From Tannerella sp. (GTDB lineage: Bacteria > Bacteroidota > Bacteroidia > Bacteroidales > Tannerellaceae), in contig JAITVS010000187.1 in assembly GCA_031285685.1 (NCBI GenBank), forward strand, positions 1 through 36,697: a stretch of 36,697 bases of DNA. The letters are read 5' to 3'. Of this stretch, positions 880 to 28,298 are shown piece after piece. A model generated the notes under the pieces. The model saw only the letters and a list, made by a program, of their open reading frames with translations, did no database searches and was not told the DNA's origin. Made by a program: the position numbers and the translations under genes. Every line of letters begins with the position of its first letter. The stretch's first letter is position 1.

Positions 880-3157
880 ATGAAACTATCTAAATTATCA
901 GTATTTATCCTGTTTTCTTTGCATTTTTTTGTCTTGTATGCCGCAGATAATAAGCCGTATGGTTTATTGACGGATTTGGTTGAGCATACGGATTATACAT
1001 GGCAAAACGGGTATGTTTCGAGTGTACCTGTCTGGCAGGTGAAAGATATGATAAAGCCTTTTCAATATGCCGGAATAAAATCGGCTTATCCTTCGTTCAG
1101 CTGGATAGTTCCAGGTGAATTGAACGGAACTTATCAGGTGTCTTACAGGATTATTGTTGCCGATAACATAGAGGACGCACGCTCCGGAATAGGAAATATC
1201 TGGGATAGCGACGTGGTCGGAAGCCGTAATTCTACTGCTGTGTTATATGGAGGAAGCGCATTGCAACCGAAAAAGAATTATTTCTGGCGTGTGAAAACCG
1301 TGACGAATACCGGTGGTGATAATGAATGGTCGGATGTGAAGGCTTTCCGTACGGCTGCTAAACTGTCGGAGTATGCCGCCGGTTTTTATCCGCAGGTGAA
1401 GACGATAGAGTATCCGGTTTCCATGAAGGTTAACGAAGATTCGGGTGTATTTGCGGATTTTGGGAAAGCGGCATTCGGACAATTGGCTCTGAGCCTGACT
1501 TCCGATAATGATAAAGACAGCGTTGTCGTGCATTTGGGAGAACATCAGATAAACGGAAAGGTAGACCGGAATCCGGAAGGAACGATTCGCTATCACCGAT
1601 ATACTGTCGGATTGTTAAGAGGAACACATACATATCATATAAAAATAGCTAAAGATAACCGGAATACAGGTTCTGCAGCAGTGCTGATTCCTGATTATAT
1701 AGGTGAGGTTATGCCTTTCAGGTATTGTGAAATTGAAGGCTATGAAAAACCGGTAACAACGACTGATGTAATCCGGGTATCCGTTCATTATCCGTTTGAT
1801 GAAAAGGCTTCCTTTTTTGAATGTAGTGACGATACATTGAATCAGATATGGGATTTGTGCAAGTATTCGGTAAAAGCGACCTCTTTTTTAGGCATTTATG
1901 TGGACGGTGATCGTGAGCGTATTCCTTACGAGGCGGATGCTTTGATTAATCAGCTTTGCCATTATGGTGTCGACAGGGAATATTCGATGGCCCGTCGTTC
2001 ACACGAGTATTTGCTGGAATACCCCACCTTGGCCGACAGAATGGATTTTACAGGCTGTGCTGATCGCATGGTATGATTATATGTATACAGGCGATAGCCG
2101 TTCGTTGAAAGCCAATTATGACATCCTGAAAGCCAGAAATTTAATGCAATTGCGGGAGAAGAACGGACTGATAAGTTCAACTACGGGATTGCTGACACCC
2201 GAATTCCTGTCGTCTATCCGTTTTAACGGACAGGTAAGGGATATTGTGGATTGGCCTCATACGGGGATTCTCGGTTTGAATAAGCACGAAGGCGGTGAAG
2301 CAGACGGTTTTGTCTTTACCGATTATAATGCAGTGACAAATGCCTATCATTATGAAGCGCTGAAGTTAATGGGGAAAATTGCCGGTGTACTTGGGGTGCA
2401 GGATGAATCTTCTTTTTATAACAAAGAGGCAAATTTGTTTCTTGGAAGGTATAATAAATTCTTTTTTAATGATAAGAAAGGATATTATGTAGATGGTGAT
2501 ACGACCAGTCACTCGTCTTTGCATGCGAATATGTTTCCCGTTGCATTTGGAATGGTTCCACAGAACAAGATGAATCGTGTGGTTGACTTCATACATACAC
2601 GTAAAATGGCTTGCAGTGTATACGGTTCACAGTTTTTGATGGATGCCTTATATGATGCATCGGATGCGGAATATGCGCTTTCTATGCTGACAAAGACAGA
2701 CGATAGGGGATGGTATAATATGATACGTGTAGGTTCGACCATTTCACTGGAAGCATGGGATAATAAGTATAAACCCAATCAGGACTGGAACCATGCATGG
2801 GGAGCCGTTCCGGCTAATATCATTCCGAGAAAACTGATGGGCGTCGAGCCATTACTTCCCGGATTTGATAAAGTGCGTATAAAACCGCAGTTGGCTTCTC
2901 TTTCATGGGCAAAGGCAGTTATTCCTACAATAAAAGGAGCAATAAGTCTGGAAATTGAAAATAAAAAAGGAGAATTCCGTATGCAGGTGACAATCCCTGC
3001 CAATATGGAAAGCGAAGTTTATTTGCCTTTATTATCAAATAAATATGAGGTGAAGGCAAATGGCGTCATACAAAAAACAACACGTGAAAAAAATGCTCCT
3101 TTCATCTCCTTGGGAAATATACCTTCCGGAGCCTATACGATTACGATGACTTATTAA
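880..3157 (+). pseudogene. Exported GH78-type alpha-L-rhamnosidase-like hydrolase, broken by one frameshift
   Basis: Two overlapping frames make one protein of about 758 residues. I start it at the ATG at 880, because MKLSKLSVFILFSLHFFVLYA is a clear signal peptide; a TTG at 850 would only add residues before it. After an N-terminal fibronectin-like part (ending in FWRVKTVT...WSDVKAFRT) and a beta-sandwich, the (alpha/alpha)6 catalytic part begins near DDTLNQIWDLCKYS. The acidic motif DGDRERIPYEAD starts at Asp342, and EAWDNKYKPNQDWNHAWGA with a C-terminal sandwich follows. These are marks of GH78 and its relatives, which release terminal rhamnose from glycans. The frame changes near 2026-2032: EYPT belongs to the first frame and WPTEWILQAV to the second. 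Removing one T from the TT at 2029-2030 restores EYPTWPTEW. It may be a real mutation or a sequence error. Substrate preference is unknown. Confidence 0.8.
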
Positions 3158-12126: not shown

Positions 12127-13020
12127 ATGAGCATATCAATACGTTCATTAAATAAAAAGTATCCGAATGGTAATCATGCCCTGAAAAACATCAACATGGA
12201 GATACCTACGGGAATGTTTGGTTTGTTGGGTCCGAATGGAGCCGGCAAATCCACACTTATGCGCATATTGGTGGCTTTAATGGAGCCGACCTCGGGTGAG
12301 GTCGACGTGTTCGGGTATAATTTGCTGAAGGAACGTAAAGAGGTTCGTAAGATACTTGGATACCTGCCCCAGGATTTTCGTTTTTTTGCCAAATATAAAA
12401 CATATGAATTTCTCGATTATGCAGCGCGTCTTTCCGGTATGAATAACGGAAAACAACGTCGCCAGGCTGTTGATACGATGCTCGAAAGCGTAGGGTTATT
12501 TGATGTCAGGGAGCGTTATGCGAATAAGCTGTCCGGCGGGATGAAGCGTCGTCTGGGAATTGCCCAGGCCTTGATTCATCAGCCGAAATTGATCATTGTC
12601 GACGAACCGACTACCGGACTTGATCCGGAAGAACGTATTCGTTTCCGAAACCTTCTTGCGGAAGTCAGTGAGAAAGAAGTCACCATTATTCTCTCAACCC
12701 ATATTGTCGGTGATATATCAAGCACCTGTAATTGTATGGCGCTGATGAATAAAGGTGAAGTTGCTTTTTTCGGTTCGCCGCAGGATATGTTGAAAGAGGC
12801 GGAAGGCAAAGTGTGGAGAATGAAAGTAAGCGGAGACGATTTGCCGCTTATAGACAAAAAATATCCGGTTATATCGACGATACCTTCCGGCACGGGCTGG
12901 GAAGTGCAGGTAGTGGCGGATGAAATAAAAGGCTATGATGCGGAACCTTATCCCCCGAATCTGGAACATGCCTATGTCTATTATATGGAAAAAAAATTGG
13001 ATCGTTGGACTAATGATTAA
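12127..13020 (+). CDS. ABC transporter ATP-binding protein (stand-alone, first gene of the exporter cluster)
   Basis: This 297-residue cytoplasmic ATPase carries every catalytic element: an A-loop Tyr12, Walker A GPNGAGKST (35-43), Q-loop LPQDF, signature LSGGMKRR (from 135), Walker B LIIVDEPTTGLD with Asp159 and Glu160, and switch His in STHI. A C-terminal extension of about 80 residues, typical of ABC-2 exporters, follows. It is 11 bases ahead of a large ABC-2-like permease and should energise it. It is clearly paralogous to the ABC domain at the end of the RND fusion gene: both read GMFGLLGPNGAGKSTLMRI and DPxERIRFRNLL. The substrate is unknown. Confidence 0.93.
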   Translation: MSISIRSLNKKYPNGNHALKNINMEIPTGMFGLLGPNGAGKSTLMRILVALMEPTSGEVDVFGYNLLKERKEVRKILGYLPQDFRFFAKYKTYEFLDYAARLSGMNNGKQRRQAVDTMLESVGLFDVRERYANKLSGGMKRRLGIAQALIHQPKLIIVDEPTTGLDPEERIRFRNLLAEVSEKEVTIILSTHIVGDISSTCNCMALMNKGEVAFFGSPQDMLKEAEGKVWRMKVSGDDLPLIDKKYPVISTIPSGTGWEVQVVADEIKGYDAEPYPPNLEHAYVYYMEKKLDRWTND

Positions 13021-13031
13021 TAAACAAAAAG

Positions 13032-16000
13032 ATGTCGGTATTAAGTAATATACGCTCTGTTGCGAAGTATGAGAGCAAGCTTCTGATGAGAAGCTGGTTC
13101 TATAGGGTATTCCTTATACTGGCCGTATTGTTCTTATGTATTTTTAACTTCGCGGCGTTAATCTCCGAAGATAGTGGTGGTTTCTGGTTGATGAAAGCCT
13201 TGCCTTCGAATATTCCATATGTTAACTTGTTATTGCTGAATACCGGACAAGCAATTATTGCGGTTTTTTTATCTTCGGAATTCCTGAAGTCCGATAAAAA
13301 ACTTGATACATCCGAAGTCTTTTATGTTCACCCACTTAGTAACTCCGAATATGTAATCGGGAAAATATGGGGGAATATGAATGTTTTTTTTCGTCTTGAC
13401 CTGATTATTATTGTATTAGTTGTCATTTTTAATCTTGCTTCAGGAGTGTCTGTCGATTGGGCGGCATATATCATTTATTTTTTCCTGATATGTGTTCCTA
13501 CCTTGATATACATATTCGGATTGTCCGTGAGCCTGATGCTTATTATTAAGAATCAGGCTATTACATTTGTTATCCTATTAGGCTATATTGCTTTAACCCT
13601 GTTTTATATAGGAGATAAGTTCTACTATCTTTTTGATTATATGGTATATAATTTACCGCTGGTGAAGTCTGCCATTGTAGGTTTTACCAATTGGGCGGCA
13701 TTGATCAACCATCGTTTAATATACCTTTTGCTTGGTCTGGGATTTATTTGTATTTCCATATTTTTATTCAGAAGATTACCGAACACAAAATATGGTCGTT
13801 ATCGTTGGCTTGTATTGTCATTTTGCTTTATTCTGGCAGGATGCGCTGCTGCTTATAATCATGTCAGTTCCATATTGGAGGAAGCCAAAATGCGGAATTT
13901 GTATACGGAAGTCAATAATAAATATGTGAATTCTCCGAAGATGATTATTGACCATTATGATATATCTGTAGAACAGCATCCTGAAATGATTTCGGCGGAA
14001 GTCGTGATGAAAGGGGTGGCTTTGGAATCTTCGCCGGTTTTCACTTTTTGTCTGAATCCGTCATTGCAATTACGTGAAATAAAAGATAACCGGAAAGAAT
14101 TGTCGTTTGATCGCGAACATCAGATTATCCTTATTGATTTCGGTCGTAATCTGGTAAAAGGTGATACGGTGTCATTTACAATGAAATATGACGGACGCAT
14201 AGACGATATTTTTTGTTACCTGGATATTCCTGCTGAAGTATTGCAACAGGAATATTCAAGTGAGATGTTTCGTATAGATAAAAAGTATAGTTTTCAAAGT
14301 AGTAATTACCTGTTATTTACACCCGAAACATATTGGTATCCTCGCCCCGGAACTTCATATAGTAGCGATAGTCCGGATTGGCAGCAGGCCTATTTCAGTA
14401 ACTTTCGTTTGACGGTGAAGACAGTCAATGGTCTTAAGGCATTGTCGCAGGGAACACAAAAGTGGCCTCCGGCAAAGAAACCTGTTGCCCGGACCGGCCG
14501 CCCGAAAAAAACACGGGAAAAACTTCCGGGGGAAGAGGGAAGGGATTCTATCGGAGCGTCTGACACAATCCCCGGCAGAAAAGATCTGGTAGTTTCAGAC
14601 CGGAGGAGACCGGACGGAGAAGCCGGCCGCGACCTGGGAAGCGGTGATAGCAGGGCCCGTAGAGGCAGTGGAGAGAGAAGCAGTGGCTCACCTCGTGAAG
14701 GACGTCCTGAAGGGGGCGCGGGAAGAGGCGGAGAACGGCCTTCAAGAGGAAACGCAGAAAGTGGCCCTGAAAGAGGGGAAAGAAGGGAACGCCCCACAAA
14801 CACGGAAGGACGAGAAACCGGAGGAACGGGACATGCTGTTGCCGAAAATCAGGATAGAGTTCCGGAAGAGGAAACTGACGATATCAGAAACCGCGAAAGA
14901 AGCGGAGAAGAGGCGCCGGCTATTCCGGAAATGAAAGACAGCCTTTTTATATTTGAGACGGACTACCCGTCTCCTTCAATAACGCTTATTATCGGTGATT
15001 ATGAACAGAAGTGCATTGATGTCGACAGTACGTTGTTCAGTATCTGGCATCTGAAAGGGCATGATTATTTTACATCCAGCTTTGACTCTATTATGGATAC
15101 CATTCCTTCACAAATCAGAGAGCGCAGACGTTCGCTGGAGAGTACCTATTCTTTAGATTATTCGTTCAATCGTTTTTCTTTAGTGGAAACACCTGTACAG
15201 TTTTATAGTTACATCCGTACATGGACACAGGCGCAGGAAAAAATGCAACCGGAAATGGTACTGTTTCCTGAAAAAGGTTGTTTGTTTGATAATGCGGATG
15301 TTGTTAAAAGGGTAAAAAATGAAAAGAAATGGGCCAAATGGAACGGACAGGATATCAGTGATGAAGAGGCGGCCATGCGTACGTTGAATAATTTTATGTG
15401 GATATTCCAGCGTACGGAAAGCGACTTTAACTGGTCGCAGGAACGGGGCTCTTTTAATGTTACGGTAAAGCCTAATCCTTATTTTGTATTTCCTCAGTTA
15501 TATCATTTCAGATATAACATATTTTCGTCGGAATGGCCTATTGCCAATCGTCTGGTGGAGCTTTATCTGCAGGATAAATCCGACAATAATACCTGGATAA
15601 GGCAGATGAACGGAATAAGCAATAATGAAAAAGCCAATCTGTTAATGGAACAGCGTCCATTCAAAGAGTTGTTGTCCGATACGGAACAGCGTGATTTGCT
15701 GGATAATGTGATATCCTTGAAAGCGAATGACCTGTTTGCTCCGGCAGAGCGGAATATCGGCTACAAGGAATATCGTGATTCATTACGGGCTGTTTTGCAG
15801 CGGAATATATTTACCAATCTTCGGTTTGAAGATCTGCTTTACACAATGGGGGGGATTGCCGGGGAGGATTTAATTACGCCTCTTAAAGCATGGAATTATC
15901 CGACTCCTCTTCCTGTATATATTGTAGGAGCGCCTGAAGTAACACATATATCTAATCGTGATAAAGAAGTCTATGTGGTGAAATTACAGATTACGAATGA

Positions 16001-16829
16001 TTCCGACAATGATGGTATTATTAATGTCGAAACAAATATCGGAGGGCGTAACGATGTGTATGATCCACGGGCAAAACGTAAAATTTCTTTTGCCGCCCAT
16101 GAAACGAAACGGCTTGTTTCTGTCTGGGATGAAGCTCCGCGTAATATAAATGTAAATACATTAATATCGGCCAATCTGCCGAATCTTGTCAATTTGCCTG
16201 TAAGTAATATTATACGCGAACGAAATAAGCCGATTGATGAGGAAGGAGATTTTGTTCTTCAGAATATTTCATACAACATTCCGGGAGAGATTATTGTCGA
16301 TAATGAAGATTCTTTGTTATTTGTTTTGTCGGAGCCGGATGTTGTCGGATTATTGCCGCGATGGTTGGATCAGGTTGACGATAACTCGTTCCGTTATTCC
16401 GGCGTTTCAAATTGGCGTCCGCCATTACAATGGACGTTGACGACAAATGATAAGTATTACGGTACGCATGTTCGTTCCGCCTATGTTATCAAGAGTGGTA
16501 GCGGAAGTCAGAGTGCAACGTGGAAAATACCTGTTCCCGCAGCAGGACAATATGACTTGTATTACTATGTCTATAAGCCGGATGATGTCCGCAGGGGACG
16601 TCGCGGAGGCGGAGGTGATCGTGGCGGAAGCGGGGATGCGGAATATCATTTTACAGTAAGATACGACGACGATGAGGAGCATACGTATGTCGACCTTAGG
16701 CGTTCGGATGAAGGTTGGAGCATTTTGGGCACCTATTACTTTAATCAGGATACGGTAAGAGTGGTTTTAACAAATGACTGCAAACTACGCTCTGTAACGG
16801 CCGATGCCGTAAAGATCGTAAAAAGATAG
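13032..16829 (+). CDS. Giant ABC-2-type permease with degenerate M1-peptidase-like and golvesin-like extracytoplasmic domains
   Basis: This 1265-residue protein begins with about seven hydrophobic segments in residues 15-280 (for example WFYRVFLILAVLFLCIFNF and WLVLSFCFILAGCAAAYNHV), like ABC-2 permeases. No membrane segment follows, so nearly a thousand residues should lie outside the cytoplasm. Residues about 290-480 are beta-rich. Residues 480-633 are a charged Arg/Gly/Glu/Pro/Ser-rich insertion. Residues 634 to about 1100 resemble the fold of M1 aminopeptidases (FSLVETPVQFYSY, QPEMVLFPEKG), but I find no zinc-binding HExxH, so catalysis is unlikely. The end, from about 1150, reads like a golvesin C-terminal domain (SATWKIPVPAAGQYDLYYYV ... 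GWSILGTYYF ... VTADAVKIV), a carbohydrate- or wall-binding type of module. In Bacteroidetes ABC permeases fused to active M1 peptidases are known; this one departs from them. The M1 relation is an inference, the golvesin match is fairly strong. Confidence 0.75.
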   Translation: MSVLSNIRSVAKYESKLLMRSWFYRVFLILAVLFLCIFNFAALISEDSGGFWLMKALPSNIPYVNLLLLNTGQAIIAVFLSSEFLKSDKKLDTSEVFYVHPLSNSEYVIGKIWGNMNVFFRLDLIIIVLVVIFNLASGVSVDWAAYIIYFFLICVPTLIYIFGLSVSLMLIIKNQAITFVILLGYIALTLFYIGDKFYYLFDYMVYNLPLVKSAIVGFTNWAALINHRLIYLLLGLGFICISIFLFRRLPNTKYGRYRWLVLSFCFILAGCAAAYNHVSSILEEAKMRNLYTEVNNKYVNSPKMIIDHYDISVEQHPEMISAEVVMKGVALESSPVFTFCLNPSLQLREIKDNRKELSFDREHQIILIDFGRNLVKGDTVSFTMKYDGRIDDIFCYLDIPAEVLQQEYSSEMFRIDKKYSFQSSNYLLFTPETYWYPRPGTSYSSDSPDWQQAYFSNFRLTVKTVNGLKALSQGTQKWPPAKKPVARTGRPKKTREKLPGEEGRDSIGASDTIPGRKDLVVSDRRRPDGEAGRDLGSGDSRARRGSGERSSGSPREGRPEGGAGRGGERPSRGNAESGPERGERRERPTNTEGRETGGTGHAVAENQDRVPEEETDDIRNRERSGEEAPAIPEMKDSLFIFETDYPSPSITLIIGDYEQKCIDVDSTLFSIWHLKGHDYFTSSFDSIMDTIPSQIRERRRSLESTYSLDYSFNRFSLVETPVQFYSYIRTWTQAQEKMQPEMVLFPEKGCLFDNADVVKRVKNEKKWAKWNGQDISDEEAAMRTLNNFMWIFQRTESDFNWSQERGSFNVTVKPNPYFVFPQLYHFRYNIFSSEWPIANRLVELYLQDKSDNNTWIRQMNGISNNEKANLLMEQRPFKELLSDTEQRDLLDNVISLKANDLFAPAERNIGYKEYRDSLRAVLQRNIFTNLRFEDLLYTMGGIAGEDLITPLKAWNYPTPLPVYIVGAPEVTHISNRDKEVYVVKLQITNDSDNDGIINVETNIGGRNDVYDPRAKRKISFAAHETKRLVSVWDEAPRNINVNTLISANLPNLVNLPVSNIIRERNKPIDEEGDFVLQNISYNIPGEIIVDNEDSLLFVLSEPDVVGLLPRWLDQVDDNSFRYSGVSNWRPPLQWTLTTNDKYYGTHVRSAYVIKSGSGSQSATWKIPVPAAGQYDLYYYVYKPDDVRRGRRGGGGDRGGSGDAEYHFTVRYDDDEEHTYVDLRRSDEGWSILGTYYFNQDTVRVVLTNDCKLRSVTADAVKIVKR
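14469..14930 (+). other. GC-rich low-complexity insert inside the giant permease
   Basis: These 154 codons (residues 480-633) encode an almost purely Arg, Gly, Glu, Ser, Pro and Asp sequence with repeated pieces such as GRPEGG, GRGGERPS and RGERRERP. It is visibly richer in G and C than the flanking gene and has no hydrophobic residues to support a fold. It should be a disordered polyampholyte loop in the extracytoplasmic part. A second, short Arg/Gly run (RRGRRGGGGDRGGSG) occurs at 16585-16635 within the golvesin-like domain. Confidence 0.85.
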
Positions 16830-17107: not shown

Positions 17108-18601
17108 ATGAAAAACAAACTGTTATGGGTAAAATTAGCCTGCGTGGTAATTCTTTTTGCAGGGCTTCCGTTGTTCTCGTTCGCACAGGAACCGATAACA
17201 ATAGAGCAGGCGTTGGATATAGCGGAAGGGAATAATCCGACACTGATAACTTCCAAGCTGAATCTGGAGAGGTATCAGCAGAACCTTGTTGCGCAGCGGG
17301 CATCTCTGAAATCTCAGTTCTCGCTCGACCTCAACCCTGTCGGCTATACAAAGACGCGTAGTTTTGATAACCGTTTGTCACAATGGTATACGAATGAGAG
17401 ATTCAATTCAAGCGGAACGTTTCAGGTTACGCAGCCTATTCTGTTGACGGACGGAGAGATATCTCTTATCAATACTTTCGGGTGGCAGGATAATAAATCT
17501 ACGGTAGAAGGTGCGGACAACAGTAATAAAGCTTTTAGTAACGACCTTTATCTTCGTCTTAATCAGCCGATTTTTACGTATAACCGTCGCAAAATGGAAC
17601 TCAAACGGATAGAATATGATTATGAAAACGCGGGAATAAGCTATGCTTTGCAGCGCCTTAATACGGAGAGGAGTATTACCAATCAGTTTTATGCTGTTTA
17701 TATGGCTCAAAGTAATCTGGAAATAAGCCATGAGGAATATGAAAATGCAAAGCAGAGTTATGAAATAATCAAAAATAAAGTGGAGGCGGATTTATCTGCA
17801 AGGGAGGAACTTTATCAGGCAGAAGTGAATTTGGCTACCGCGCAGTCTTCTGTGGAAGAACGTATTGTTACACTTGAGAATGCCAAGGATGAACTGAAGC
17901 AGACATTAGGTATGTCACTTGGCGAGAATATCAACGTAGAAGCGGATATTGAAGTGAGTCCGGTGTCTGTTAATCTGGATCAGGCTGTTCAAAGCGGATT
18001 GCATTCGCGAATGGAATTGCGTCAGCGCGAGATAGATATAGAACTGGCGGAGTTGCAGATGATACAGACGAAAGGGCTTAGCGAATTTAAAGGAGATGTC
18101 TCCTTGTCAATCGGTATTATCGGCGATAACGAGAAGTTTGCAAATATATATGAGAACCCGACCCAAAACCCGAGGGTTGCTGTCAGCTTTACGGTTCCTA
18201 TATTTGACTGGGGAGAGAAAAAGGCGCGTGTGAGAGCGCAAAAGACAGCTCAGACAATTGCCAAGTTGGAACATGAAAATGAGAAAGTGGACATAGAATT
18301 GAATATTCGTCAGGTATGGCGCAGATTGGAAAACCTTCGTACACAGATAAGTATCGCAGAGAAGAATGTCCGTAACGCGCAACTTACCTACGACCTGAAT
18401 CTGACAAGATATCGTGAAGGTGATCTTACGGGGATGGAAATCAGTCAGTTTCAGACACAGCTTTCAAATAAAAAGATTACATACTCGCAGACTCTTATCA
18501 ATTATAAAATAGAATTGTTGAATCTGAAGATTCTTGCTCTGTACGATTTTGAAAAAGGAGTCCCGATCGTTCCGGTAAAAGAGTTGGACAACCAGGATTA
18601 A
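17108..18601 (+). CDS. TolC-family outer-membrane efflux protein
   Basis: This 497-residue protein has a signal peptide (LACVVILFAGLPLFSFAQ, cleaved before EPITIEQ). It also has the two-fold repeated outer-membrane-efflux architecture: ITIEQALDIAEGNNPTL opens the first repeat and VNLDQAVQSGLHSRMELRQREIDIELAELQ opens the second. Long coiled-coil helices (residues 195-270 and 370-470) form the periplasmic tunnel, and FTVPIFDWGEKKARVRAQ is the typical beta-strand/helix junction. A trimer would form the outer-membrane exit channel. It lies 34 bases ahead of the adaptor gene and so should serve the RND pumps downstream. I chose the ATG at 17108 because it gives the intact signal peptide. Confidence 0.92.
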   Translation: MKNKLLWVKLACVVILFAGLPLFSFAQEPITIEQALDIAEGNNPTLITSKLNLERYQQNLVAQRASLKSQFSLDLNPVGYTKTRSFDNRLSQWYTNERFNSSGTFQVTQPILLTDGEISLINTFGWQDNKSTVEGADNSNKAFSNDLYLRLNQPIFTYNRRKMELKRIEYDYENAGISYALQRLNTERSITNQFYAVYMAQSNLEISHEEYENAKQSYEIIKNKVEADLSAREELYQAEVNLATAQSSVEERIVTLENAKDELKQTLGMSLGENINVEADIEVSPVSVNLDQAVQSGLHSRMELRQREIDIELAELQMIQTKGLSEFKGDVSLSIGIIGDNEKFANIYENPTQNPRVAVSFTVPIFDWGEKKARVRAQKTAQTIAKLEHENEKVDIELNIRQVWRRLENLRTQISIAEKNVRNAQLTYDLNLTRYREGDLTGMEISQFQTQLSNKKITYSQTLINYKIELLNLKILALYDFEKGVPIVPVKELDNQD

Positions 18602-18636: not shown

Positions 18637-19689
18637 ATGAAATACAGAAGCTTATTATCCGCGGCAATGATTGTTTTACTGACAGCATGTAACAATCAGC
18701 CACAAAGTAATCAGAACGATATTGAAACGCCTGTATCTGTACAGGAACTGAAAAAAGGTTCTATCAGCAAGTTGATTAATACTACCGGAACAGCGCAGGC
18801 TACATACAGTGTAGAACTGAACTCGGAGATGAGTGGTATGTATAAACTTCAGACGAACTCCAGAACCGGGAAACCGTATAAGTTGGGCGATGCGGTTAAA
18901 AAAGGCCAGCTTATCATCCACCTCGAAGATAAAGAATATGAGAATGGTATCGCGCTGGAATCTAAAAAGTTAACGCTTGAGATTGCGGAACAGGAGCAGA
19001 CCAAGCAAAAAGCGCTGTATGAAAAAGGCGGAGTCACTCTCAGTGAAATGCGTAATACGGAAGTGAGGGTTACCAACGCGCGTTATGACCTTGAAAATGC
19101 GCATCTCAACCTCGAAAAAATGAATATTACGGCGCCTTTTGACGGCGTGATCGTTTCTTTACCTCATTATACGACGGACGGAAGAGTTACGCAAGGGCAA
19201 CCAATGGTTGGAATAATGGACTATGCGCGTATGTATATGGATATAAATCTTCCGGAGAGTACAATCGAATATATCAAACCTAATCAACCGGTATACATTA
19301 CCCACTATACAATGCCGGAGGATACATTACGGGGAGTTATCAGTGAATTGTCGCCTGCGATAAGTATTGAGACACGTACATTCAAAGGAAAGATCTCTAT
19401 CGATAATACAGGTTTGAAATTACGTCCCGGAATGTTTGTAAAAGCAGATGTGGTGGTCGATAAGGCTGACAGTGCCATTATCATACCGAAGGATGTTGTC
19501 CTTTCCAGCAGAAACCGGAAGTATGTTTATGTTGTGGAGAAAAATACGGCGATTGTACGTAATATAAAAACAGGGCTCGAAGACGAAGATAATATTCAGG
19601 TAACGGAAGGTCTGAATGAAAATGATAACCTTGTTGTCAGAGGATACGAAACCTTGCGTGAAAATAGTCGCGTTAAGGTGCTTAAATAG
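18637..19689 (+). CDS. RND-type periplasmic adaptor (membrane fusion) lipoprotein
   Basis: This 350-residue protein starts with a lipoprotein signal (MKYRSLLSAAMIVLLTAC, acylated Cys18). The family order is intact: a barrel-sandwich half (TGTAQATYSVELNSEMSG), a short alpha-hairpin (about 105-160, rich in Glu and Lys), the second half (NITAPFDGVIVSLPHYTTDGRVTQGQPMVGIM), a beta-barrel (MYMDINLPESTIEYIKPNQPVYIT) and a membrane-proximal part (LRPGMFVKADVVVDKADSAIIIPKDVV). It should bridge the RND pumps and the TolC-type channel. The hairpin is short compared with AcrA. The same adaptor could also hold the ABC subunits, but that is inference. Confidence 0.92.
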   Translation: MKYRSLLSAAMIVLLTACNNQPQSNQNDIETPVSVQELKKGSISKLINTTGTAQATYSVELNSEMSGMYKLQTNSRTGKPYKLGDAVKKGQLIIHLEDKEYENGIALESKKLTLEIAEQEQTKQKALYEKGGVTLSEMRNTEVRVTNARYDLENAHLNLEKMNITAPFDGVIVSLPHYTTDGRVTQGQPMVGIMDYARMYMDINLPESTIEYIKPNQPVYITHYTMPEDTLRGVISELSPAISIETRTFKGKISIDNTGLKLRPGMFVKADVVVDKADSAIIIPKDVVLSSRNRKYVYVVEKNTAIVRNIKTGLEDEDNIQVTEGLNENDNLVVRGYETLRENSRVKVLK

Positions 19690-19733: not shown

Positions 19734-22700
19734 ATGAGAAAAATAATCACCTTTGCGGTAAAAAATCCTGTTACCATAAGCATGGTTGTACTGGCAATCC
19801 TGTTATTGGGAAAGATTTCGTACGATCGGTTGAACGTGGATTTATTACCTGATATGAATTCTCCGCGTCTTTTTGTCGAGATTGAAGCGGGAGAGCGTCC
19901 GCCGGAAGAGATCGAGAAAATGTTTGTGGAAAATATGGAGTCGATGGCCATACGGCAGAGTGATGTGACACAGGTATCGTCGGTTATTAAAGCCGGTTCT
20001 GCGCGTATTACGGTTGAGTATGTCCAAAACAAAGATATGGATGAGGCTTTTCTTGACCTTCAGAAAGCGATGAGTCCTTTTTCCCAGAATACGGATATCG
20101 AGTCTATCAATATTACGCAGCATGACCCCAATACTGCACCGGTAGTACTTGTAGCCATGTCTCACCGTTCTATAACGGATATGGCGGAATTGCGTAAAAT
20201 GGCGGAGAGTTATATCCGGAATGAACTGATACGTCTCGAAGGTGTCGCTGAGGTGTCGCTTTCCGGGCAGGAGATCCCTGTGCTGACCATAAAGACAGAC
20301 CCGTATAAGTTAAGCGCATTCGGGTTGACAATGGAAGAGATCTCATCGCGGATTGAGGCTAATAATCAGAGTATTTCAGGAGGACGTGTGAGCGAACTCG
20401 GCTTGCAGTACCTGGTGAAAAGTTCATCATTGTTTACGTCCGAAACCGATTTTGAAAACCTGATTGTCAGCTATAAATCGACAGAGGCGCCTGCGGCAGG
20501 AACAAATGCAGCAGCGGGAACATCCTCTTCGTCTGCTTCATCCGAAAGCAATAGTAAAGCTCCGTTGTACTTGCGGGAAGTGGCGACTGTGAAATTTGAA
20601 AACGCACGTCCCGAAAATATTGTCCGTATCAATGGTGAGCGTTGCATCGGATTGTCCGTTTACAAGGAAATGCAATATAATACGGTACGGGTAGTAGAGC
20701 ATATCACGAATCAGCTGGGTTTTATTGAACAGGCGTTGCCGGGTTATAAATTTCAGGTAATCAGTAATCAGGGTACATTTATAAAACAGGCTATAGATGA
20801 GGTTAAAAACAGCGCGGTTTTAGGTATGGTTCTTGCCGTATTAGTGTTGTTTGTTTTTCTTCGTCGCATAGGAACAACACTGATCGTCAGTTTGTCTATT
20901 CCGATATCTATTATCGCTACATTTAACTTGATGTATTTTAACGGATTGACGCTGAATGTGATGACATTAAGTGGTCTGGCCTTAGGTGGTGGTATGCTTA
21001 TTGACAACGCGATTGTGGTGATAGAAAGTATTTTCCGGAATCATGAACGCGGACTTAGCCGGAGGGAATCGATTATCACGGGTACGTCGGAAGTTTCGGG
21101 CGCTGTGATTGCTTCTACGCTGACAACAATCGTTGTTTTCCTGCCGATTGTATATATTCACGGTGTTTCGGGAGAATTGTTTAAAGACCAGGCATGGACG
21201 GTCGCGTTTTCGCTGTTATCATCTTTGTTTGTCGCTTTGCTTGTGATACCGATGTTGTATGATAAATTATCCGGGCGGAAAAATGCCAAGACAGAAACAA
21301 ACTCTATTCAGTTTAAATGGTATAACAGTGTGCTGTCTTCTTTGTTGAAACGTCGCTGGGTGGTTATCGGAATTTCCGTGTTGTTATTGATCGGTACGAT
21401 ACTCCTTCTTCCGTTTGTGGGAACAGAGTTTCTTCCCCGTTCCGAAAGCCGTGCATTTTCGATATCGGTAAAACTACCGGAGGGTACACGTATAGAGCGT
21501 ACCGACGCGGTGGTGAATAATCTGGAATACCTGGTTCATACGATAAGCGGAGATAGTTTGTGTACAGTATATAGTCATGTCGGCCAGGGTTCGTCTGAAA
21601 ATGAAGTTTTTGAAGGTGAGCATACGGCGATGATGAAAGTTATCTTGTCGAAATCATCGCCATTACCTCCGGAAATGGTGATGGAGCGTTTTGTAGAAGC
21701 GACAAATAATATAGAAGGGCTGGAGCTTACGTTTAAGCAGGAAGATAACTCTTTAGGATCATTGTTCGGAGATGAAGACGCGCCGATCATTGTTGAAGTG
21801 AAGGGTGAAGATCTGGATGAGATCGCTTCTATCACGGACGAAGTTCTGATGAAGATGGAGACCGTAGCCGGCATTTACAATATCAAATCATCAATGGCGG
21901 ACGGAGCTCCCGAACTAACCGTTTCAATCGACCGCACGATGGCTGGAATTAATAACATTACGGTTTCGACGGTTATTGAGCAGCTTAAACAACAGTTGCA
22001 GGGGCGTGATATCGGTAAAATGGATTATAAGGGAGAGATGCGCGATATTGTCATAAAAGTACCGGATGTCACCGTAAAAGATTTGCAAGATCTTGTAATC
22101 AAAAACGGAAATCAGGAATTCCGCTTACGTGAGATCGCGACAATTGAAAGTTCACTGGCTCCAAAAGAAATTTTCCGCCGGAATCAAAGCCGTATTAATA
22201 AAATATTAACCGATAAAGATGCCGGTAAATCATTGGATAAAGTGGCTCAGCAGATACGTCAGACCGTCAGTGAAATAAATCTCCCGACTAATTATTCAAT
22301 TAATGTTACGGGTGAAGAAGAAAAGCGTCAGGAGTCGATGAACAGTCTTCTATTTGCATTGCTTTTGTCGGTCATTCTCGTTTATATGGTGCTGGCGTCG
22401 CAGTTTGAGTCGCTGTTGCATCCGTTTACAATCCTGTTGACCATACCGCTTGCTCTTGTCGGCGCTATCCTGATGTTTTTGATTACCGGTACGACGATTA
22501 ATATAATGGGTGTTATCGGTATTATTATGCTGGCCGGTATTGCAGTGAACAACTCGATTATTCTGGTAGGGCGTATTAATCAGTTGAAAACAGAAATGAG
22601 TCTTACGGATGCCATAGTACAGGCCGGACAACAGCGTATTCGTCCTATTATTATGACAAGTTTAACAACAATCCTGGCGTTGTTGCCGATGTCATTTAAT

Positions 22701-22877
22701 ATCGGAGAAGGGGCTGCCTTACGTTCGTCTATGGCGATAGCCGTTATCGGAGGATTGATTACCTCTACATTGATGAGCTTGGTTGTTATTCCGTGTGTGT
22801 ACTATGTTTTTGAACAAATGAAACGTCGTGTGACTAAGAGACATCCGGAGACGGAACGAATGGTGCCGGAACAATAA
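19734..22877 (+). CDS. RND efflux pump permease subunit 1
   Basis: This 1047-residue inner-membrane pump subunit has 12 transmembrane helices and two large periplasmic loops after TM1 and TM7. It opens with IITFAVKNPVTISMVVLAILLLG. TM4 reads LGGGMLIDNAIVVIES, with Asp424 retained and the second relay Asp replaced by Asn425. TM10 carries AGIAVNNSIILVGRINQ, where AcrB has a Lys. This pattern belongs to HAE-type Bacteroidetes pumps unlike AcrB. Residues 250-276 form an Ala/Ser/Thr-rich insert (EAPAAGTNAAAGTSSSSASS) within the first porter loop. A second RND gene starts 24 bases after this one, so a hetero-oligomer like MdtBC is plausible. The substrate is unknown. Confidence 0.93.
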   Translation: MRKIITFAVKNPVTISMVVLAILLLGKISYDRLNVDLLPDMNSPRLFVEIEAGERPPEEIEKMFVENMESMAIRQSDVTQVSSVIKAGSARITVEYVQNKDMDEAFLDLQKAMSPFSQNTDIESINITQHDPNTAPVVLVAMSHRSITDMAELRKMAESYIRNELIRLEGVAEVSLSGQEIPVLTIKTDPYKLSAFGLTMEEISSRIEANNQSISGGRVSELGLQYLVKSSSLFTSETDFENLIVSYKSTEAPAAGTNAAAGTSSSSASSESNSKAPLYLREVATVKFENARPENIVRINGERCIGLSVYKEMQYNTVRVVEHITNQLGFIEQALPGYKFQVISNQGTFIKQAIDEVKNSAVLGMVLAVLVLFVFLRRIGTTLIVSLSIPISIIATFNLMYFNGLTLNVMTLSGLALGGGMLIDNAIVVIESIFRNHERGLSRRESIITGTSEVSGAVIASTLTTIVVFLPIVYIHGVSGELFKDQAWTVAFSLLSSLFVALLVIPMLYDKLSGRKNAKTETNSIQFKWYNSVLSSLLKRRWVVIGISVLLLIGTILLLPFVGTEFLPRSESRAFSISVKLPEGTRIERTDAVVNNLEYLVHTISGDSLCTVYSHVGQGSSENEVFEGEHTAMMKVILSKSSPLPPEMVMERFVEATNNIEGLELTFKQEDNSLGSLFGDEDAPIIVEVKGEDLDEIASITDEVLMKMETVAGIYNIKSSMADGAPELTVSIDRTMAGINNITVSTVIEQLKQQLQGRDIGKMDYKGEMRDIVIKVPDVTVKDLQDLVIKNGNQEFRLREIATIESSLAPKEIFRRNQSRINKILTDKDAGKSLDKVAQQIRQTVSEINLPTNYSINVTGEEEKRQESMNSLLFALLLSVILVYMVLASQFESLLHPFTILLTIPLALVGAILMFLITGTTINIMGVIGIIMLAGIAVNNSIILVGRINQLKTEMSLTDAIVQAGQQRIRPIIMTSLTTILALLPMSFNIGEGAALRSSMAIAVIGGLITSTLMSLVVIPCVYYVFEQMKRRVTKRHPETERMVPEQ

Positions 22878-22901: not shown

Positions 22902-25900
22902 ATGAATTTTCTGTTAAATAGAAAAATAACAATAACGATGTTGTTTATAGCGCTTACCCTGCTTGGGTATGTGTCGTATAAGCAATTGCCCGTGGAGTTA
23001 TTGCCTAACGCGGAACTGCCGATGTTATTTGTATCCGTCAATTCACAGCAGGAGATGGATCCTTCCTATGTGGAATCGGAAGTTATCATTCCCCTTGAAG
23101 GTGCAATAAGCTCAATCGGAGGCGTAGATAAAATACAGTCGGAAATTAGCAGTCGCCAGTCCTCCATACAAATTGATTTTAAGAGTAATGTCAACTTCAA
23201 AGCTACATCATTGAAGCTGGAGGAAAAGATGAAAGAAGTATCCGCATCGCTTCCGGACGGTTTTGTTGTGCGTGTCCAGAAAGTGGATGTGGCAATGATG
23301 ACAAATAATTTTATGACGCTTCAGGTGCGTGGCTCGGGGGGCGTTGACCGTGTACGTAATGTTGTTGATGAAAGAATAACTTCCGAACTGGAGAATATTG
23401 ATGGCGTAGCGGCCGTGAATGTATACGGCGGCCGGGAAAAAGCGATTGAAATTCGCTTAGATAAGGAAGCATGTAAGGCTTTAAACCTTACCACTTCGAG
23501 AATAAGCGGCCTGCTGAGCAGTAATACGCAGGAAAAAGTGTTTGTCGGGAATGTGATAGAGTCAAACAATCAGTTTTTTGTCCATGTTAATTCATCGTAC
23601 ACAAAGGTTTCCGACCTTGAAAATATTGTAGTAGCCCCAGGCCCTGTATTGCTGAAAGATGTGGCAACCGTATTTTTCGACCTGAAGGAAGAAACATCAT
23701 TCAGCCGCGTGAATGGAAAAGAAGCGATTTCGGTTTCACTGGTGAACGACGCACAAGCAAATCTGATCGATTTGTCACATCGTACGATAGATGTTATCAA
23801 TAAGTTAAATGAACGTCTGGAAAGTATGGATGTTGAGATTGTCATTGATTCCAATACTGCCGAAACAATGGAAAACAATATCAACCAGATTATAGACCTG
23901 GCGTTGGTTGGCGGGTTGCTGGCTATTGTTGTGCTTTGGTTTTTCCTTAAGAATATACGACTGGTATTCTTTATCGCATTATCCATCCCGATATCCGTAT
24001 TTACGGCTTTTAATTTCTTTTATGCGGCGGGAATATCTATAAACAGTCTTACGCTTGTCGGAATGGCGCTTGCTGTCGGGATGTTGCTCGATAACAGCGT
24101 CGTCGTGCTTGAAAATATCTACCGGCTGTCCGGTGCCGGTTCTTCGCCCGAACGTTCCGTTACGCAGGGTACTTCAGAGGTTTGGCGTTCGATTGTCGCG
24201 GCTACTCTTACGACTGTCACCGTATTTCTTCCTTTCGTTTTTACCGATAATTTTATGATAAAATTGATCGGTAATCACATCGGAGTTTCTATTATATCCA
24301 CGCTTTTAGTGTCTATGGCTGTTGCGCTTTTGTTTATCCCCATGGCGGCATATGTCATATTACGTAATAAGAAGAACAGTAGTGTTTTCTATGAAAAAGT
24401 TTCGTTATCGCAACGTCCTGTGCAGGTTTATCTTGTCCTTCTCAAGACTTGTATGCGTAATCTGGGAGTGACGATTTTCGGCTCTGTCGTCTTACTTTTC
24501 GTAACACTTATATTTTCATTGACTACAACTGTACAGCAGAATCAGGAAGTGGAGTCCGACCGCTTTAACGTTTATGTGACAATGCGTACGGGAAGCACGT
24601 TGGAAAGTACGGACAGGGTAGTCAAGGTATTGGAAGAGCGCCTGAATGAAATACCGGAAAAGAAAGATGTTATCAGCCGCATCAATGAAGAGGAGGCTGT
24701 CCTGACGTTTGTCTTGCAGGAAAATTATCAGAAGATAGGTAAGCGAAGTATTTCCGAAATTAAGTCCGATGTACAATCAAAAATGCCGAATGTGGAAGGC
24801 GCTGAAATATCCGTATCGGATGCGACAGGCGGACAGAACAGGGGCGGAGATATGGGAGGTATGATAGCTTTTATGAGTTTACTCGGGATTGGTGACAATC
24901 AGGAACGTGTTATCATCAAAGGTTCCGATTATGATATGATGCAGCTTGTTGCCGAAGATGTACGTTACTACCTGGACGAACAGGATTTTATCCGTAATTC
25001 ATGGGTTTCCTATACACGTCGTCAGCCGGAGGTACGTCTTAATTTCGATCAGGTACTGCTTACTTCTTACGAGATAACACGTGCCAATATAACTGCAGGA
25101 CTGGCAGATCTGAACACGGAATATCCGTCGGGTACTACTTTCAAGGTAGGTGAAGAGGCTTATGATATCATTATCCGTGACAAAACACCGGAAGAAGAGC
25201 GGGCGAAACAAAAAACAATAAATGACCTTGAGGCGATACAGATAATAAATGCAAATGGCGGTTTGCATAGCCTGAAAGATATTGCTACTGTAAACAGAGC
25301 ATTCGGTCGTTCGCGTATAACACGCGTCAATCAGGATAAGCAACTTGAAGTGCGGTATAATTTTATCCGTAGTGTCGAACAGTCCAATTCTTTACTGGAA
25401 GGTTATCGTGCTGAGATCGACCAGTTAATAGCGAATTATAATTTACCGTCGGGTGTGGCGATTGAAGTGATACACGAAGAAGATCTGTTTGCGGACTTTA
25501 AATTTCTTATCATTGCAGCCTTTATCCTGATATTCATGATACTGGCCTGTGTTTTCGAATCCGTATCGACACCATTTGTCTTATTGTTTTCCATACCATT
25601 AGCGGCAATCGGTTCGCTGCTGGCTCTGGTTATGACGGGAAATACGTTGCTGAGCGCCAATACATTGACCGGTTTTCTGATATTACTGGGAGTTGTTGTG
25701 AATAACGGCATCATCTTGATCGATTATGCCAATATATTGCGAAAGCGTGGCTTCCGTCGTGAGCGGGCGTTGATGACGGCGGGACTGTCGCGTATACGCC
25801 CGATATTAATAACAAGTATTACAACGATCATTGCCATGTTCCCGTTGGCCATGGGCGATTCGGAATATGCCGGAGCTATCGGCGCGCCTTTCGCTATTAC

Positions 25901-27584
25901 TGTTATCGGCGGACTCGCTTTCTCAACGTTGTTGACATTGGTTATCATTCCTACGGTTGCCATGGGACTGGAAAATACGTTGGTCTGGTATCGCACATTA
26001 TCACGCAAGATGAAAGCGTTACACCTTGTTCTTATTGTTGTCGGAATAGCTTGTATCTATTTTTATGTAGACGAATTGTTGTGGCAATCGTTATATCTTG
26101 TTGCACTCATTATTCTTGTACCCGGGGTTACGTATTTTGCACAGACGAGTCTGCGGCGTGCCAAGTCCGATGTGGTTGATAAAGAGCAGGAAATACATAT
26201 TGTAATAAGAAACCTTGTGAAGGTCTATGACCGCGCAGGACGTTTTTCGCGTCAGTGGAACAGCGGATTGGAATTACGTAAGCGTCTGGGTTTAAGCAGC
26301 GAATATCATTCGCTGAAAGATTTTGTCGGCATCAGCTGGCAATTTGCGCTATGGGGCTTTGGTATCTATTTCACCTATTTCTATGTTGAAAGTAAACTCT
26401 GGAGCTTCTTTCTGTCTTTTGCTGTTTATGCCTCTACTTTATATTTATGGCGTAAGATCAGAACCTATCTGTTCTATCGTTTTTCCGGCAGTAAGGTAGT
26501 GAAGTATATCAATCGTATCATATTCTGGAGTATTCCTCCGGTGATTTTATTCGGGCTGTACAAAAAGCTGGACAATCCTTCCATGACGGCGATCATCGGT
26601 GTGTTGTGGGCTGCCGGTATTGCGATATATATTACTTCCCAGTATTTGTATGAAAAGGAGATTAATATTGAGCGAATAAGCGGTCGTTTTGCCGGTCTTC
26701 GTCGTTCTTATTTCCGCATGGCAAAGAGTATTCCGCTTATCGGGAAGCGTCGTCGTCCGTTTAAGGCGTTGCGTGGCGTTTCTTTCGAAATAAAAACGGG
26801 AATGTTCGGTTTGCTTGGGCCTAACGGAGCCGGAAAATCCACGTTGATGCGTATCGTTACGGGTATTTTTGAGCAAAGTTACGGTAGTATATGGATTAAC
26901 GGATTGGATACACGTGTTTACCGCGAAGAATTACAGAGTCTTATCGGTTTTCTTCCGCAGGAATTCGGTACTTATGAGAATATGTCGTCCTGGGAATTTT
27001 TGGATTATCAGGCAATCATGAAGGGGTTGACAGACGAAAAGGTGCGAAACGGGCGTCTGGAATATGTACTGAAGGCTGTTCACATGTACGAACGGAGGAA
27101 TGATAAAATCGGTTCCTTCTCCGGAGGAATGAAACAACGTATCGGTATTGCATTGATATTGTTGCATTTGCCACGTATTCTGGTGGTCGATGAGCCGACT
27201 GCCGGTCTTGATCCACGCGAGCGTATCCGTTTCCGAAACTTGTTGGTTGAGTTGAGTAAAGACCGTGTGGTTATTTTCTCTACGCATATTATCGAAGATA
27301 TTTCAAGCTCTTGTAATCAGGTCGTTGTGATTAATAAAGGTGATTTGAAATATTTCGGCGAACCGGTCGGCATGGTAGGTATGGCAGTCGGTAAAGTATG
27401 GCAGTTCCTGATAGACAAAGAGTCGTTCGAAGGAAAGTTGGATAAATCGCTTATCGTACACAACATTCAGGAAGGCGATATGATACAGGTGCGCTATCTT
27501 TCAAAAGAACAACCCTATCCCGGCGCCGTTCAGGTAGAAGCGAACTTAGAAGACGCCTATTTATGTTTGTTGAAAAACATGTGA
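22902..27584 (+). CDS. RND pump subunit fused to a transmembrane linker and an ABC ATPase domain
   Basis: This single 1560-residue frame joins two transporter classes. Residues 1 to about 1030 are a complete RND permease: TM1 at MNFLLNRKITITMLFIALTLLG, GMLLDNSVVVLENIYR in TM4 with Asp397, VVVNNGIILIDYANILRKRG in TM10, and a normal TM12. Two extra hydrophobic helices follow (about 1035-1080). IVIRNLVKVYD (1100-1110) then resembles the first strand of an ABC ATPase with its A-loop Tyr. Four more hydrophobic helices come next (about 1135-1250). The rest of the ABC domain follows: ALRGVSFEI, Walker A GPNGAGKST (1306-1314), LPQEF, signature SGGMKQR (from 1407) and Walker B with Asp1430 and Glu1431. 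All catalytic motifs are intact, and no stop or frame change occurs at the junction. The next gene, a permease, starts 3 bases after the stop. Confidence 0.93.
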   Translation: MNFLLNRKITITMLFIALTLLGYVSYKQLPVELLPNAELPMLFVSVNSQQEMDPSYVESEVIIPLEGAISSIGGVDKIQSEISSRQSSIQIDFKSNVNFKATSLKLEEKMKEVSASLPDGFVVRVQKVDVAMMTNNFMTLQVRGSGGVDRVRNVVDERITSELENIDGVAAVNVYGGREKAIEIRLDKEACKALNLTTSRISGLLSSNTQEKVFVGNVIESNNQFFVHVNSSYTKVSDLENIVVAPGPVLLKDVATVFFDLKEETSFSRVNGKEAISVSLVNDAQANLIDLSHRTIDVINKLNERLESMDVEIVIDSNTAETMENNINQIIDLALVGGLLAIVVLWFFLKNIRLVFFIALSIPISVFTAFNFFYAAGISINSLTLVGMALAVGMLLDNSVVVLENIYRLSGAGSSPERSVTQGTSEVWRSIVAATLTTVTVFLPFVFTDNFMIKLIGNHIGVSIISTLLVSMAVALLFIPMAAYVILRNKKNSSVFYEKVSLSQRPVQVYLVLLKTCMRNLGVTIFGSVVLLFVTLIFSLTTTVQQNQEVESDRFNVYVTMRTGSTLESTDRVVKVLEERLNEIPEKKDVISRINEEEAVLTFVLQENYQKIGKRSISEIKSDVQSKMPNVEGAEISVSDATGGQNRGGDMGGMIAFMSLLGIGDNQERVIIKGSDYDMMQLVAEDVRYYLDEQDFIRNSWVSYTRRQPEVRLNFDQVLLTSYEITRANITAGLADLNTEYPSGTTFKVGEEAYDIIIRDKTPEEERAKQKTINDLEAIQIINANGGLHSLKDIATVNRAFGRSRITRVNQDKQLEVRYNFIRSVEQSNSLLEGYRAEIDQLIANYNLPSGVAIEVIHEEDLFADFKFLIIAAFILIFMILACVFESVSTPFVLLFSIPLAAIGSLLALVMTGNTLLSANTLTGFLILLGVVVNNGIILIDYANILRKRGFRRERALMTAGLSRIRPILITSITTIIAMFPLAMGDSEYAGAIGAPFAITVIGGLAFSTLLTLVIIPTVAMGLENTLVWYRTLSRKMKALHLVLIVVGIACIYFYVDELLWQSLYLVALIILVPGVTYFAQTSLRRAKSDVVDKEQEIHIVIRNLVKVYDRAGRFSRQWNSGLELRKRLGLSSEYHSLKDFVGISWQFALWGFGIYFTYFYVESKLWSFFLSFAVYASTLYLWRKIRTYLFYRFSGSKVVKYINRIIFWSIPPVILFGLYKKLDNPSMTAIIGVLWAAGIAIYITSQYLYEKEINIERISGRFAGLRRSYFRMAKSIPLIGKRRRPFKALRGVSFEIKTGMFGLLGPNGAGKSTLMRIVTGIFEQSYGSIWINGLDTRVYREELQSLIGFLPQEFGTYENMSSWEFLDYQAIMKGLTDEKVRNGRLEYVLKAVHMYERRNDKIGSFSGGMKQRIGIALILLHLPRILVVDEPTAGLDPRERIRFRNLLVELSKDRVVIFSTHIIEDISSSCNQVVVINKGDLKYFGEPVGMVGMAVGKVWQFLIDKESFEGKLDKSLIVHNIQEGDMIQVRYLSKEQPYPGAVQVEANLEDAYLCLLKNM

Positions 27585-27587: not shown

Positions 27588-28298
27588 ATGAAGAAATACA
27601 TAACGCTGATAACTAAAGTTGTACGATATAATCTGAAGATTATATTCGCCGGCAAGTTTTTTTGGTTTTTATTAGCCGCTTTTGCCTTTTTCGCTTTTTT
27701 TATGTTTCAACAGGCGTGGAACAGAGCGGAAACGAACGAAGGTTCAATCTACAACCTGTTATTATTTCCCTGCCTGTTGCTGATCTTCTATCCGGTTGTT
27801 TTCGGCATTCAGAATGATGAGGATAACCGGATTCTTGAAATCATTTTCGGTATTCCCAATTATCGCTATAAGGTCTGGGGACTTCGTATGCTGATGGTCT
27901 ATGTCGCGGATTATTTTATCCTTGTTGTATTTGCTTATATCGCCCGTGTCTTGCTATATCCTGTCAATATATTTGAAATGGCGGCTCAACTCATCTTTCC
28001 TATGCTGTTTTTTGGTAATCTGGCCTTTATGTTTTCCACGATTACGCGGAGCGGCAATGGGACGGCAGTTATCATGATTATACTAGGCCTGGTATTTTTT
28101 ATCTTTATGAATGCCAATGGTGCAATCAACAATTCTTTTTGGAACGTTTTTCTGAATCCGTTTTCCATACCAAGAGATATTCATCCCATGATCTGGCAGA
28201 ATACGATCATTAAAAGCCGTCTCTTTTTATCAATTGGCGGAATTGTTTTTCTGATGATAGGCCTCCTGAATCTCCAGAAACGGGAGAAATTTGTGTGA
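27588..28298 (+). CDS. ABC-2-type permease subunit
   Basis: This 236-residue integral membrane protein has six predicted helices, among them FFWFLLAAFAFFAFFMFQQAW, YNLLLFPCLLLIFYPVVFG, YFILVVFAYIARVLLYP, LIFPMLFFGNLAFMFSTI, AVIMIILGLVFFIFMN and LFLSIGGIVFLMIGLLN. The order and the short amphipathic start fit ABC-2 exporters. It begins 3 bases after the RND-ABC fusion, a spacing that implies translational coupling, so it is the natural partner of the fused ATPase domain. It has no extracytoplasmic domain, unlike the giant permease at the front of the cluster. The transported substrate is unknown. Confidence 0.85.
   Translation: MKKYITLITKVVRYNLKIIFAGKFFWFLLAAFAFFAFFMFQQAWNRAETNEGSIYNLLLFPCLLLIFYPVVFGIQNDEDNRILEIIFGIPNYRYKVWGLRMLMVYVADYFILVVFAYIARVLLYPVNIFEMAAQLIFPMLFFGNLAFMFSTITRSGNGTAVIMIILGLVFFIFMNANGAINNSFWNVFLNPFSIPRDIHPMIWQNTIIKSRLFLSIGGIVFLMIGLLNLQKREKFV

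Follow-up and report, generated by a model that had tools for sequence, protein, structure and literature searches.

A conserved gene fusion joins an RND permease to an ABC ATPase within a set of export genes

The window, by which we mean the whole stretch of 36,697 nucleotides that was analyzed from a Tannerella sp. contig, carries a set of seven genes on its forward strand. The first gene encodes a separate ABC ATPase of 297 amino acids (positions 12127 to 13020; ABC_tran, 111 bits, motifs intact). It is followed by a gene for a 1265-amino-acid protein in which Pfam and hhalign recognize an ABC-2 half-permease, an M1-like domain and a Golvesin_C domain (13032 to 16829). Next are genes for a TolC-type outer-membrane channel (17108 to 18601; OEP, 146 bits), a periplasmic adaptor, or membrane fusion protein (18637 to 19689; TIGR01730 RND_mfp, 197 bits against a cut-off of 94.9), and an RND permease of ordinary length, 1047 amino acids, termed RND1 (19734 to 22877; ACR_tran, 695 bits). 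The sixth gene (22902 to 27584) is the fusion described below. The seventh encodes a 236-amino-acid protein that, judging from AlphaFold2, Foldseek and gene neighborhood, is probably a small six-helix permease of the ABC-2 type (27588 to 28298).

This seven-gene set is conserved. RND1 lies directly upstream of the fusion in every one of the 37 fetched loci with enough sequence on that side, and the gene for the 236-amino-acid protein lies directly downstream in 42 of the 43 fetched loci with sequence there; for the sole exception, L129, only 421 bases were fetched on that side. Both the separate ATPase and the 1265-amino-acid permease are upstream in the eight loci, out of eight, that extend far enough. 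Some genomes contribute two loci to these counts, the gene being parted between contigs, and two re-fetches (L124 and L125) are uncounted. The related loci showed neither the M20-family gene at 28325 nor the surrounding sugar-utilization genes. Elsewhere in the window, at 850 to 3157, an alpha-L-rhamnosidase occupies two overlapping frames (850 to 2076 and 1964 to 3157) that divide its 6-hairpin domain; either the gene is broken or the sequence contains an error. In the locus of a Rikenellaceae metagenome-assembled genome (MAG) (L033, 1 to 2695), the permease and the TolC gene each consist of two abutting in-frame pieces with one stop codon between them, unlike the adaptor, RND1 and fusion frames, which are open.

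The initial annotation had described the sixth gene as an unbroken frame running from an RND permease into an ABC ATPase, and translation bears this out: positions 22902 to 27584 form a single open frame of 1560 amino acids with no internal stop. Both domains score above their Pfam cut-offs, with a full-length ACR_tran match at residues 2 to 1019 (523 bits, cut-off 28) and an ABC_tran match at residues 1290 to 1434 (87 bits, cut-off 25). The RND part consists of residues 1 to 1024 (22902 to 25973), and its TM4 residue Asp397 is at the position of AcrB Asp407. The first strand and A-loop of the ATPase, including Tyr1109, were located at residues 1098 to 1109 (26193 to 26228) by alignment of fused with unfused ATPases and by structural superposition. 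The remainder of the ATPase domain, defined by ABC_tran and invariant columns, is residues 1287 to 1560 (26760 to 27581).

The ATPase appears fully equipped. Walker A (GPNGAGKST) is at residues 1306 to 1314 (26817 to 26843), the signature (SGGMKQR) at 1407 to 1413 (27120 to 27140), and the Walker B pair at Asp1430 and Glu1431 (27189 to 27194), exactly where the initial annotation had placed them. In addition, we find the Q-loop residue Gln1353 and the H-loop residue His1462 (27285 to 27287). All of these motif positions, along with Tyr1109, are invariant across 16 aligned sequences (that of the window and 15 relatives), and the domain superposes on whole ATPases as an ABC ATPase fold. Five ATPase motifs are present in all 45 fused ATPases fetched, which indicates that ATP hydrolysis is under selection. 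Thus, the fusion of RND permease and ABC ATPase is confirmed as real, intact and conserved.

Residues 1025 to 1286 had earlier been taken for a spacer. Hydropathy and an AlphaFold2 model instead point to a membrane-embedded region, which begins with a predicted two-helix hairpin between the RND part and the ATPase (residues ~1035 to 1088; 26004 to 26165). A second membrane segment (residues ~1110 to 1286; 26229 to 26759) is predicted by hydropathy, the model and alignment to lie inside the ATPase domain. The model, which covers fusion residues 1025 to 1560 with moderate confidence, has four helices in this insert at ~1138 to 1251, where hydropathy alone gives two peaks. Alignment of nine fused with eight unfused ABC ATPases places the insert after the first strand and A-loop of the ATPase, and superposition of whole ATPases begins at model residues 67 to 75, which correspond to fusion residues 1091 to 1099. 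The rows of the VIA-align comparison mainly span the ATPase domain, and we make no claim about the fold of the inserted helices. Alignment, hydropathy and the moderate-confidence model together support a membrane segment that is probably nested within the ATPase domain. Because four is an even number of helices, the ATPase would stay cytoplasmic.

The insert varies among relatives. Two fusion variants (L133, 837 to 5444, and L134, 1035 to 5579) have a shortened insert of about two helices versus four, and a fusion frame of 1627 amino acids (L135, 560 to 5440) has an ATPase insert that opens with a long, probably disordered stretch rich in Gly, Ser and Asp. For the linker alone, no Pfam family scored above its cut-off, and searches of plasmids (at E 1e-5) and phages gave no match. 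When the linker and ATPase were searched together, at least 5000 plasmid records matched, all below 60% identity; the ten matches listed cover 50 to 54% of the query, which is the ATPase part. Two records cover at least 80% of this query, and a linker match at E 1e-5 was excluded separately.

A search with the whole protein produced matches far above ordinary RND proteins in 33 of 100 genomes. In 26 of these, including the genome of the window, the fused frame is complete (1557 to 1640 amino acids), and the other seven have pieces only. The best matches in the remaining 67 genomes have E values of 1e-107 or weaker, and among the matches listed, unfused RND proteins have at most 33% identity to the fusion. 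The 25 other genomes with complete frames carry the same joined frame at 50 to 94% identity, a recurrence that is more than chance. The initial annotation had called for a database search for RND and ABC domains in one chain, and these complete frames provide the expected conservation.

Searches that began from the C-terminal part extend this distribution. An alignment of residues 1025 to 1560 matches 52 of 393 Bacteroidales genomes at 1e-92 or better, with 44 of the matches in frames of 1515 to 1640 amino acids and eight in shorter frames. The RND part was confirmed by alignment in eight of the 44 genomes with long frames (G000, G053, G066, G082, G529, G671, G719 and G783). For the other 36, the evidence is frame length, except in G014 and G048, which are covered by the whole-protein search. 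Across the phylum, six of 395 genomes match linker and ATPase, in frames of 1561 to 1640 amino acids that are all confirmed as fusions. The other phylum matches listed start no earlier than position 207 of 536 and hence are without most of the linker; their frames are 288 to 411 amino acids long, except for one chance frame of 1432 amino acids (G443). That frame, which contains an ABC ATPase, was rejected as a fusion: as judged by eye, its ATPase has its own internal start, and the preceding stretch, which has no membrane helices, looks like G+C-rich DNA translated by chance. Three candidates were scored per genome in both searches. The distribution is patchy, with no linker match in 341 of the 393 Bacteroidales genomes or in 389 of the 395 from the phylum.

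Holders of the fusion among the matches listed include an uncultured Proteiniphilum, Parabacteroides massiliensis SN4, Draconibacterium mangrovi GM2-18, and MAGs assigned to Rikenellaceae (one), Carboxylicivirga (one), Bacteroidales (three) and Candidatus Latescibacterota (one). The nearest named relative among these matches is a Proteiniphilum MAG, at 82% identity over the C-terminal part. The Latescibacterota copy, whose contig ends within the fusion gene on both sides, has identities of 31%, 23% and 58% in RND part, linker and ATPase, respectively; it is an example beyond Bacteroidota, the phylum that the systematic searches covered. In a phylogenetic tree of ATPases, the 14 fused sequences form one clade with a support of 0.998. 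The tree left out nine sequences in which the Walker A pattern was unmatched, namely six unfused ATPases and the fused L037, L112 and L113, all three of which have every ATPase motif. Because the fused ATPases form one clade and share the linker, the fusion probably had a single origin.

Could the frame have been joined by an error of sequencing or assembly? The window does come from a fragmented assembly of 423 contigs. However, among the 100 genomes searched, 25 besides that of the window have the identical join in a complete frame, and named isolates such as P. massiliensis SN4 and D. mangrovi GM2-18 carry it. An assembly artefact is ruled out by this recurrence in relatives, and we regard the chance of such an error as negligible. 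The fusion would also have been called into question by relatives with two separate genes, as the initial annotation recognized. Such relatives were looked for, and every short frame followed ended at a contig end; none revealed a split RND/ATPase gene. The short frames followed were those of G073, G081, G006, G018, G019, G039, G070 and the second copy of G011 from the whole-protein set, and those of G539, G587, G707, G709, G725 and G729 from the Bacteroidales set. Each of the eight shorter Bacteroidales frames runs into a contig end at its start or its finish. Among the seven genomes with pieces only, four have pieces that extend past the RND part, and the pieces in G019, G039 and G073 do not cross the junction and are uninformative on the join.

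The 1265-amino-acid permease scores 47 bits against Golvesin_C, which is over the cut-off, and 22 bits against ABC2_membrane_2, which is under the cut-off of 27. Golvesin_C is present in all five permease copies scanned. By hhalign, this protein aligns to the second transmembrane half and the M1 domain of one-piece ABC/M1 permeases (probability 99.95), and it and eight related copies have only 6 to 7 predicted transmembrane helices, versus 11 to 14 in the one-piece proteins. Since only the second half is present, the protein seems to require another half-permease as partner. All nine copies (the window permease and the eight related ones) lack the HExxH zinc site of M1, which each of 15 full-length permeases adjoining unfused ATPases has. 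The latter comparison was given 25 loci; no such frame was seen in L057 and L058, and eight were set aside because the ATPase pattern was not found in them. The window permease is 111 to 170 amino acids longer than the eight related copies, whose frames have 1095 to 1154 amino acids, and its residues 482 to 637 (14475 to 14942) are a charged, low-complexity stretch rich in Arg, Gly and Glu. The separate ATPase of the operon groups with the ATPases of ABC/M1 permeases (support 1.0), apart from the fused ATPase. We rejected the idea that it is a degenerate ATPase without Walker B, as this motif is intact.

The 236-amino-acid protein matches no Pfam or NCBIfam family, including the ABC-2 families, and its own family has the consensus QNDEDxRILEILFGIPNYRYKVW. 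AlphaFold2 predicts six helices with a pLDDT of 84.4. The top 14 Foldseek matches of this model are to PmtCD, NosY and ABCG-type ABC-2 transporters, with probabilities of 0.94 to 1.00 and E values of only 0.018 to 0.56; the best is PmtCD (probability 1.00, E 0.018 at best). As modeled, the protein thus has the fold of an ABC-2 permease. Its profile shows no similarity to the transmembrane part of the 1265-amino-acid permease (hhalign probability 0.1). Against one-piece ABC/M1 permeases, the hhalign probability is 83 for the first half and 54 for the second, both weak, and against the first half alone it is 65. Even so, this protein is the obvious substitute for the first transmembrane half that the 1265-amino-acid permease is missing. 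Its place next to the fusion also makes it a likely partner of the fused ATPase.

To assess the RND parts, 18 fusions and 17 RND1 proteins were aligned with AcrB, MdtB and MdtC. We take Asp407, Asp408, Lys940, Arg971 and Thr978 of AcrB to be its proton-relay residues. Asp407, Arg971 and Thr978 are kept in all 18 fusions and all 17 RND1 proteins. At the Asp408 position, 17 of the fusions, including that of the window, have Asn and one has Thr; RND1 proteins have Asn in 16 cases and Asp in one. The Lys940 position is Asn in every fusion, again including that of the window, and is Asn in 16 RND1 proteins and Ser in one. With Asp408 and Lys940 replaced in the fusions, and Lys940 in all RND1 proteins, proton drive is not assured, and a relay reduced in this way could mean weaker or different proton coupling. 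Four other RND proteins of the same genome were also aligned. The Lys is retained in two of them (own1 and own3), whereas most of the relay set is missing from own5, which has none of the acidic residues or the Thr. The fourth, own8 (locus L008), shows the reduced pattern of the fusion; therefore, this pattern is not a mark of the fusion.

The recurrence of the fusion in a conserved export gene set suggests an export machine with two engines. Our preferred reading, held tentatively and at somewhat below even confidence, is an exporter with two stages: an ABC-2 module, one of whose ATPases is welded to an RND subunit, would feed an RND/adaptor/TolC conduit. The operon would then build one trans-envelope machine from an ABC-2 stage and an RND stage. 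Each of the two different half-permeases would have its own ATPase; both of these ATPases have intact motifs, and one is welded to the second RND protein. The fused ATPase would pair with the separate ATPase, or perhaps with itself, beneath the 236-amino-acid protein and the transmembrane part of the 1265-amino-acid protein. ATP hydrolysis would bring the substrate, whether it starts in the cytoplasm or in the inner leaflet, to the periplasmic side. There, a trimer of RND1 and RND2 (the RND region of the fusion), and thus bearing the fused ATPase, would receive it and expel it through the adaptor and TolC channel, presumably driven by protons via the retained Asp, Arg and Thr. The extra helices would hold the ATPase beside the RND core and thereby keep pump and ATPase in a fixed ratio and position. 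The initial annotation had proposed either a dual-energy pump or an RND trimer that has three ATPases and docks ABC permeases; two energy sources for the pump, like three ATPases in the trimer, are hypothetical. The 42 of 43 loci with an ABC-2-like permease gene directly downstream agree with the choice of partner; the physical docking we infer. As for the trimer, the second RND gene directly upstream in all 37 loci makes a mixed assembly of RND1 and RND2, carrying one or two ATPases, at least as likely, and this neighborhood is suggestive of a heterotrimer like MdtBC.

The operon might instead supply two separate ABC transporters to one RND assembly, one made of two 236-amino-acid proteins and two fused ATPases, with the separate ATPase and the 1265-amino-acid permease forming a pair apart. 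The RND trimer would then hold two or three ATPase-bearing subunits. An ATPase gene followed directly by its permease gene is a usual ABC-2 order, and the position of the fused ATPase apart from the operon ATPase in the tree makes a homodimeric second transporter possible. The two ATPases thus come from different clades, and the two permeases are not detectably similar. However, the 6 to 7 predicted helices of the 1265-amino-acid permease, versus 11 to 14 in its one-piece relatives, and the occurrence of both ABC sets together in eight of eight loci argue against this arrangement, which we consider a less probable one. Still less probable is that ATP directly drives or gates the RND core, replacing or supplementing proton drive, through a dimer of fused ATPases below the trimer that acts via the hairpin and inserted helices. 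In favor of such a role are the predicted anchoring of the ATPase beside RND TM12 by about six extra helices and the relay being reduced to Asp, Arg and Thr in both fusion and RND1. However, own8 has the same relay among the four other RND proteins aligned, an ordinary ATPase partner is encoded next to the fusion in nearly every locus, and a dimeric ATPase does not match the symmetry of a trimer.

A more novel reading is a dual-energy transporter, in which membrane-nested ATPases attached to the RND chain would act on the RND core itself as well as on the neighboring ABC-2 permease. This is unlikely in our estimation; if true, proton- and ATP-driven steps would be mechanically coupled in one machine. 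Finally, the ATPase might be a tether or regulator, with FtsEX-like signaling or control of RND trimer assembly, rather than a transport motor. An M1-like domain that lacks HExxH in nine of nine copies and is followed by Golvesin_C would fit a periplasmic part that binds or signals and does not cut. This role seems quite improbable, given that the ATPase motifs are of the transport type and that the operon encodes an adaptor and a TolC channel, which indicate export.

Exporters of the RND and ABC types are regarded as distinct classes, each with its own fuel, and here a conserved chain joins both, with membrane helices carried by the ATPase domain itself. The fusion is a natural system in which to test whether RND and ABC exporters can be coupled, including the way in which an ATPase dimer is seated on a trimeric pump and whether substrate passes from an ABC to an RND stage. 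Among the papers listed by searches of an open-access library, we recognized no description of the fusion, and uncharacterized annotations of this architecture may well exist.

Several known systems share parts of this arrangement. The membrane part of MacB is of the ABC type, whereas the main membrane part of the fused chain is an RND permease. In MacAB-TolC, as in the operon, an ABC ATPase belongs to a pump that also includes an adaptor and TolC, in that case a tripartite one, and ATPase and membrane part share one chain (PMC8277102). Like RND pumps of the AcrB and MdtBC type, the fusion has a full-length ACR_tran domain and adjacent adaptor and TolC genes, and as with mdtB and mdtC, two different RND genes are side by side. 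It differs from these pumps in its C-terminal hairpin, nested helices and ABC ATPase, and in the replacement of the residues equivalent to AcrB Asp408 and Lys940. YbhFSR, which we take to be an ABC-2 exporter with adaptor and TolC, is the comparison system for that class, and PmtCD and NosFY are ABC-2 exporters to which the fold is likened. With such exporters the operon shares an ATPase of similar type, a six-helix ABC-2-like partner encoded downstream, and an adaptor and TolC; it differs in having the ATPase within an RND chain and a membrane insertion after the A-loop. Pairs of ABC permease and M1 peptidase (for example, loci L041, L046, L049 and L052) have ATPases that group with the operon ATPase, and their second transmembrane half and M1 domain match the 1265-amino-acid permease, which differs in the missing first half, the loss of HExxH and the added Golvesin_C. 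Pumps of the RND class, exporters of the ABC-2 class and ABC/M1 permeases are all known kinds of system, and the fusion, with its nested membrane segment, is a variant that joins two of them.
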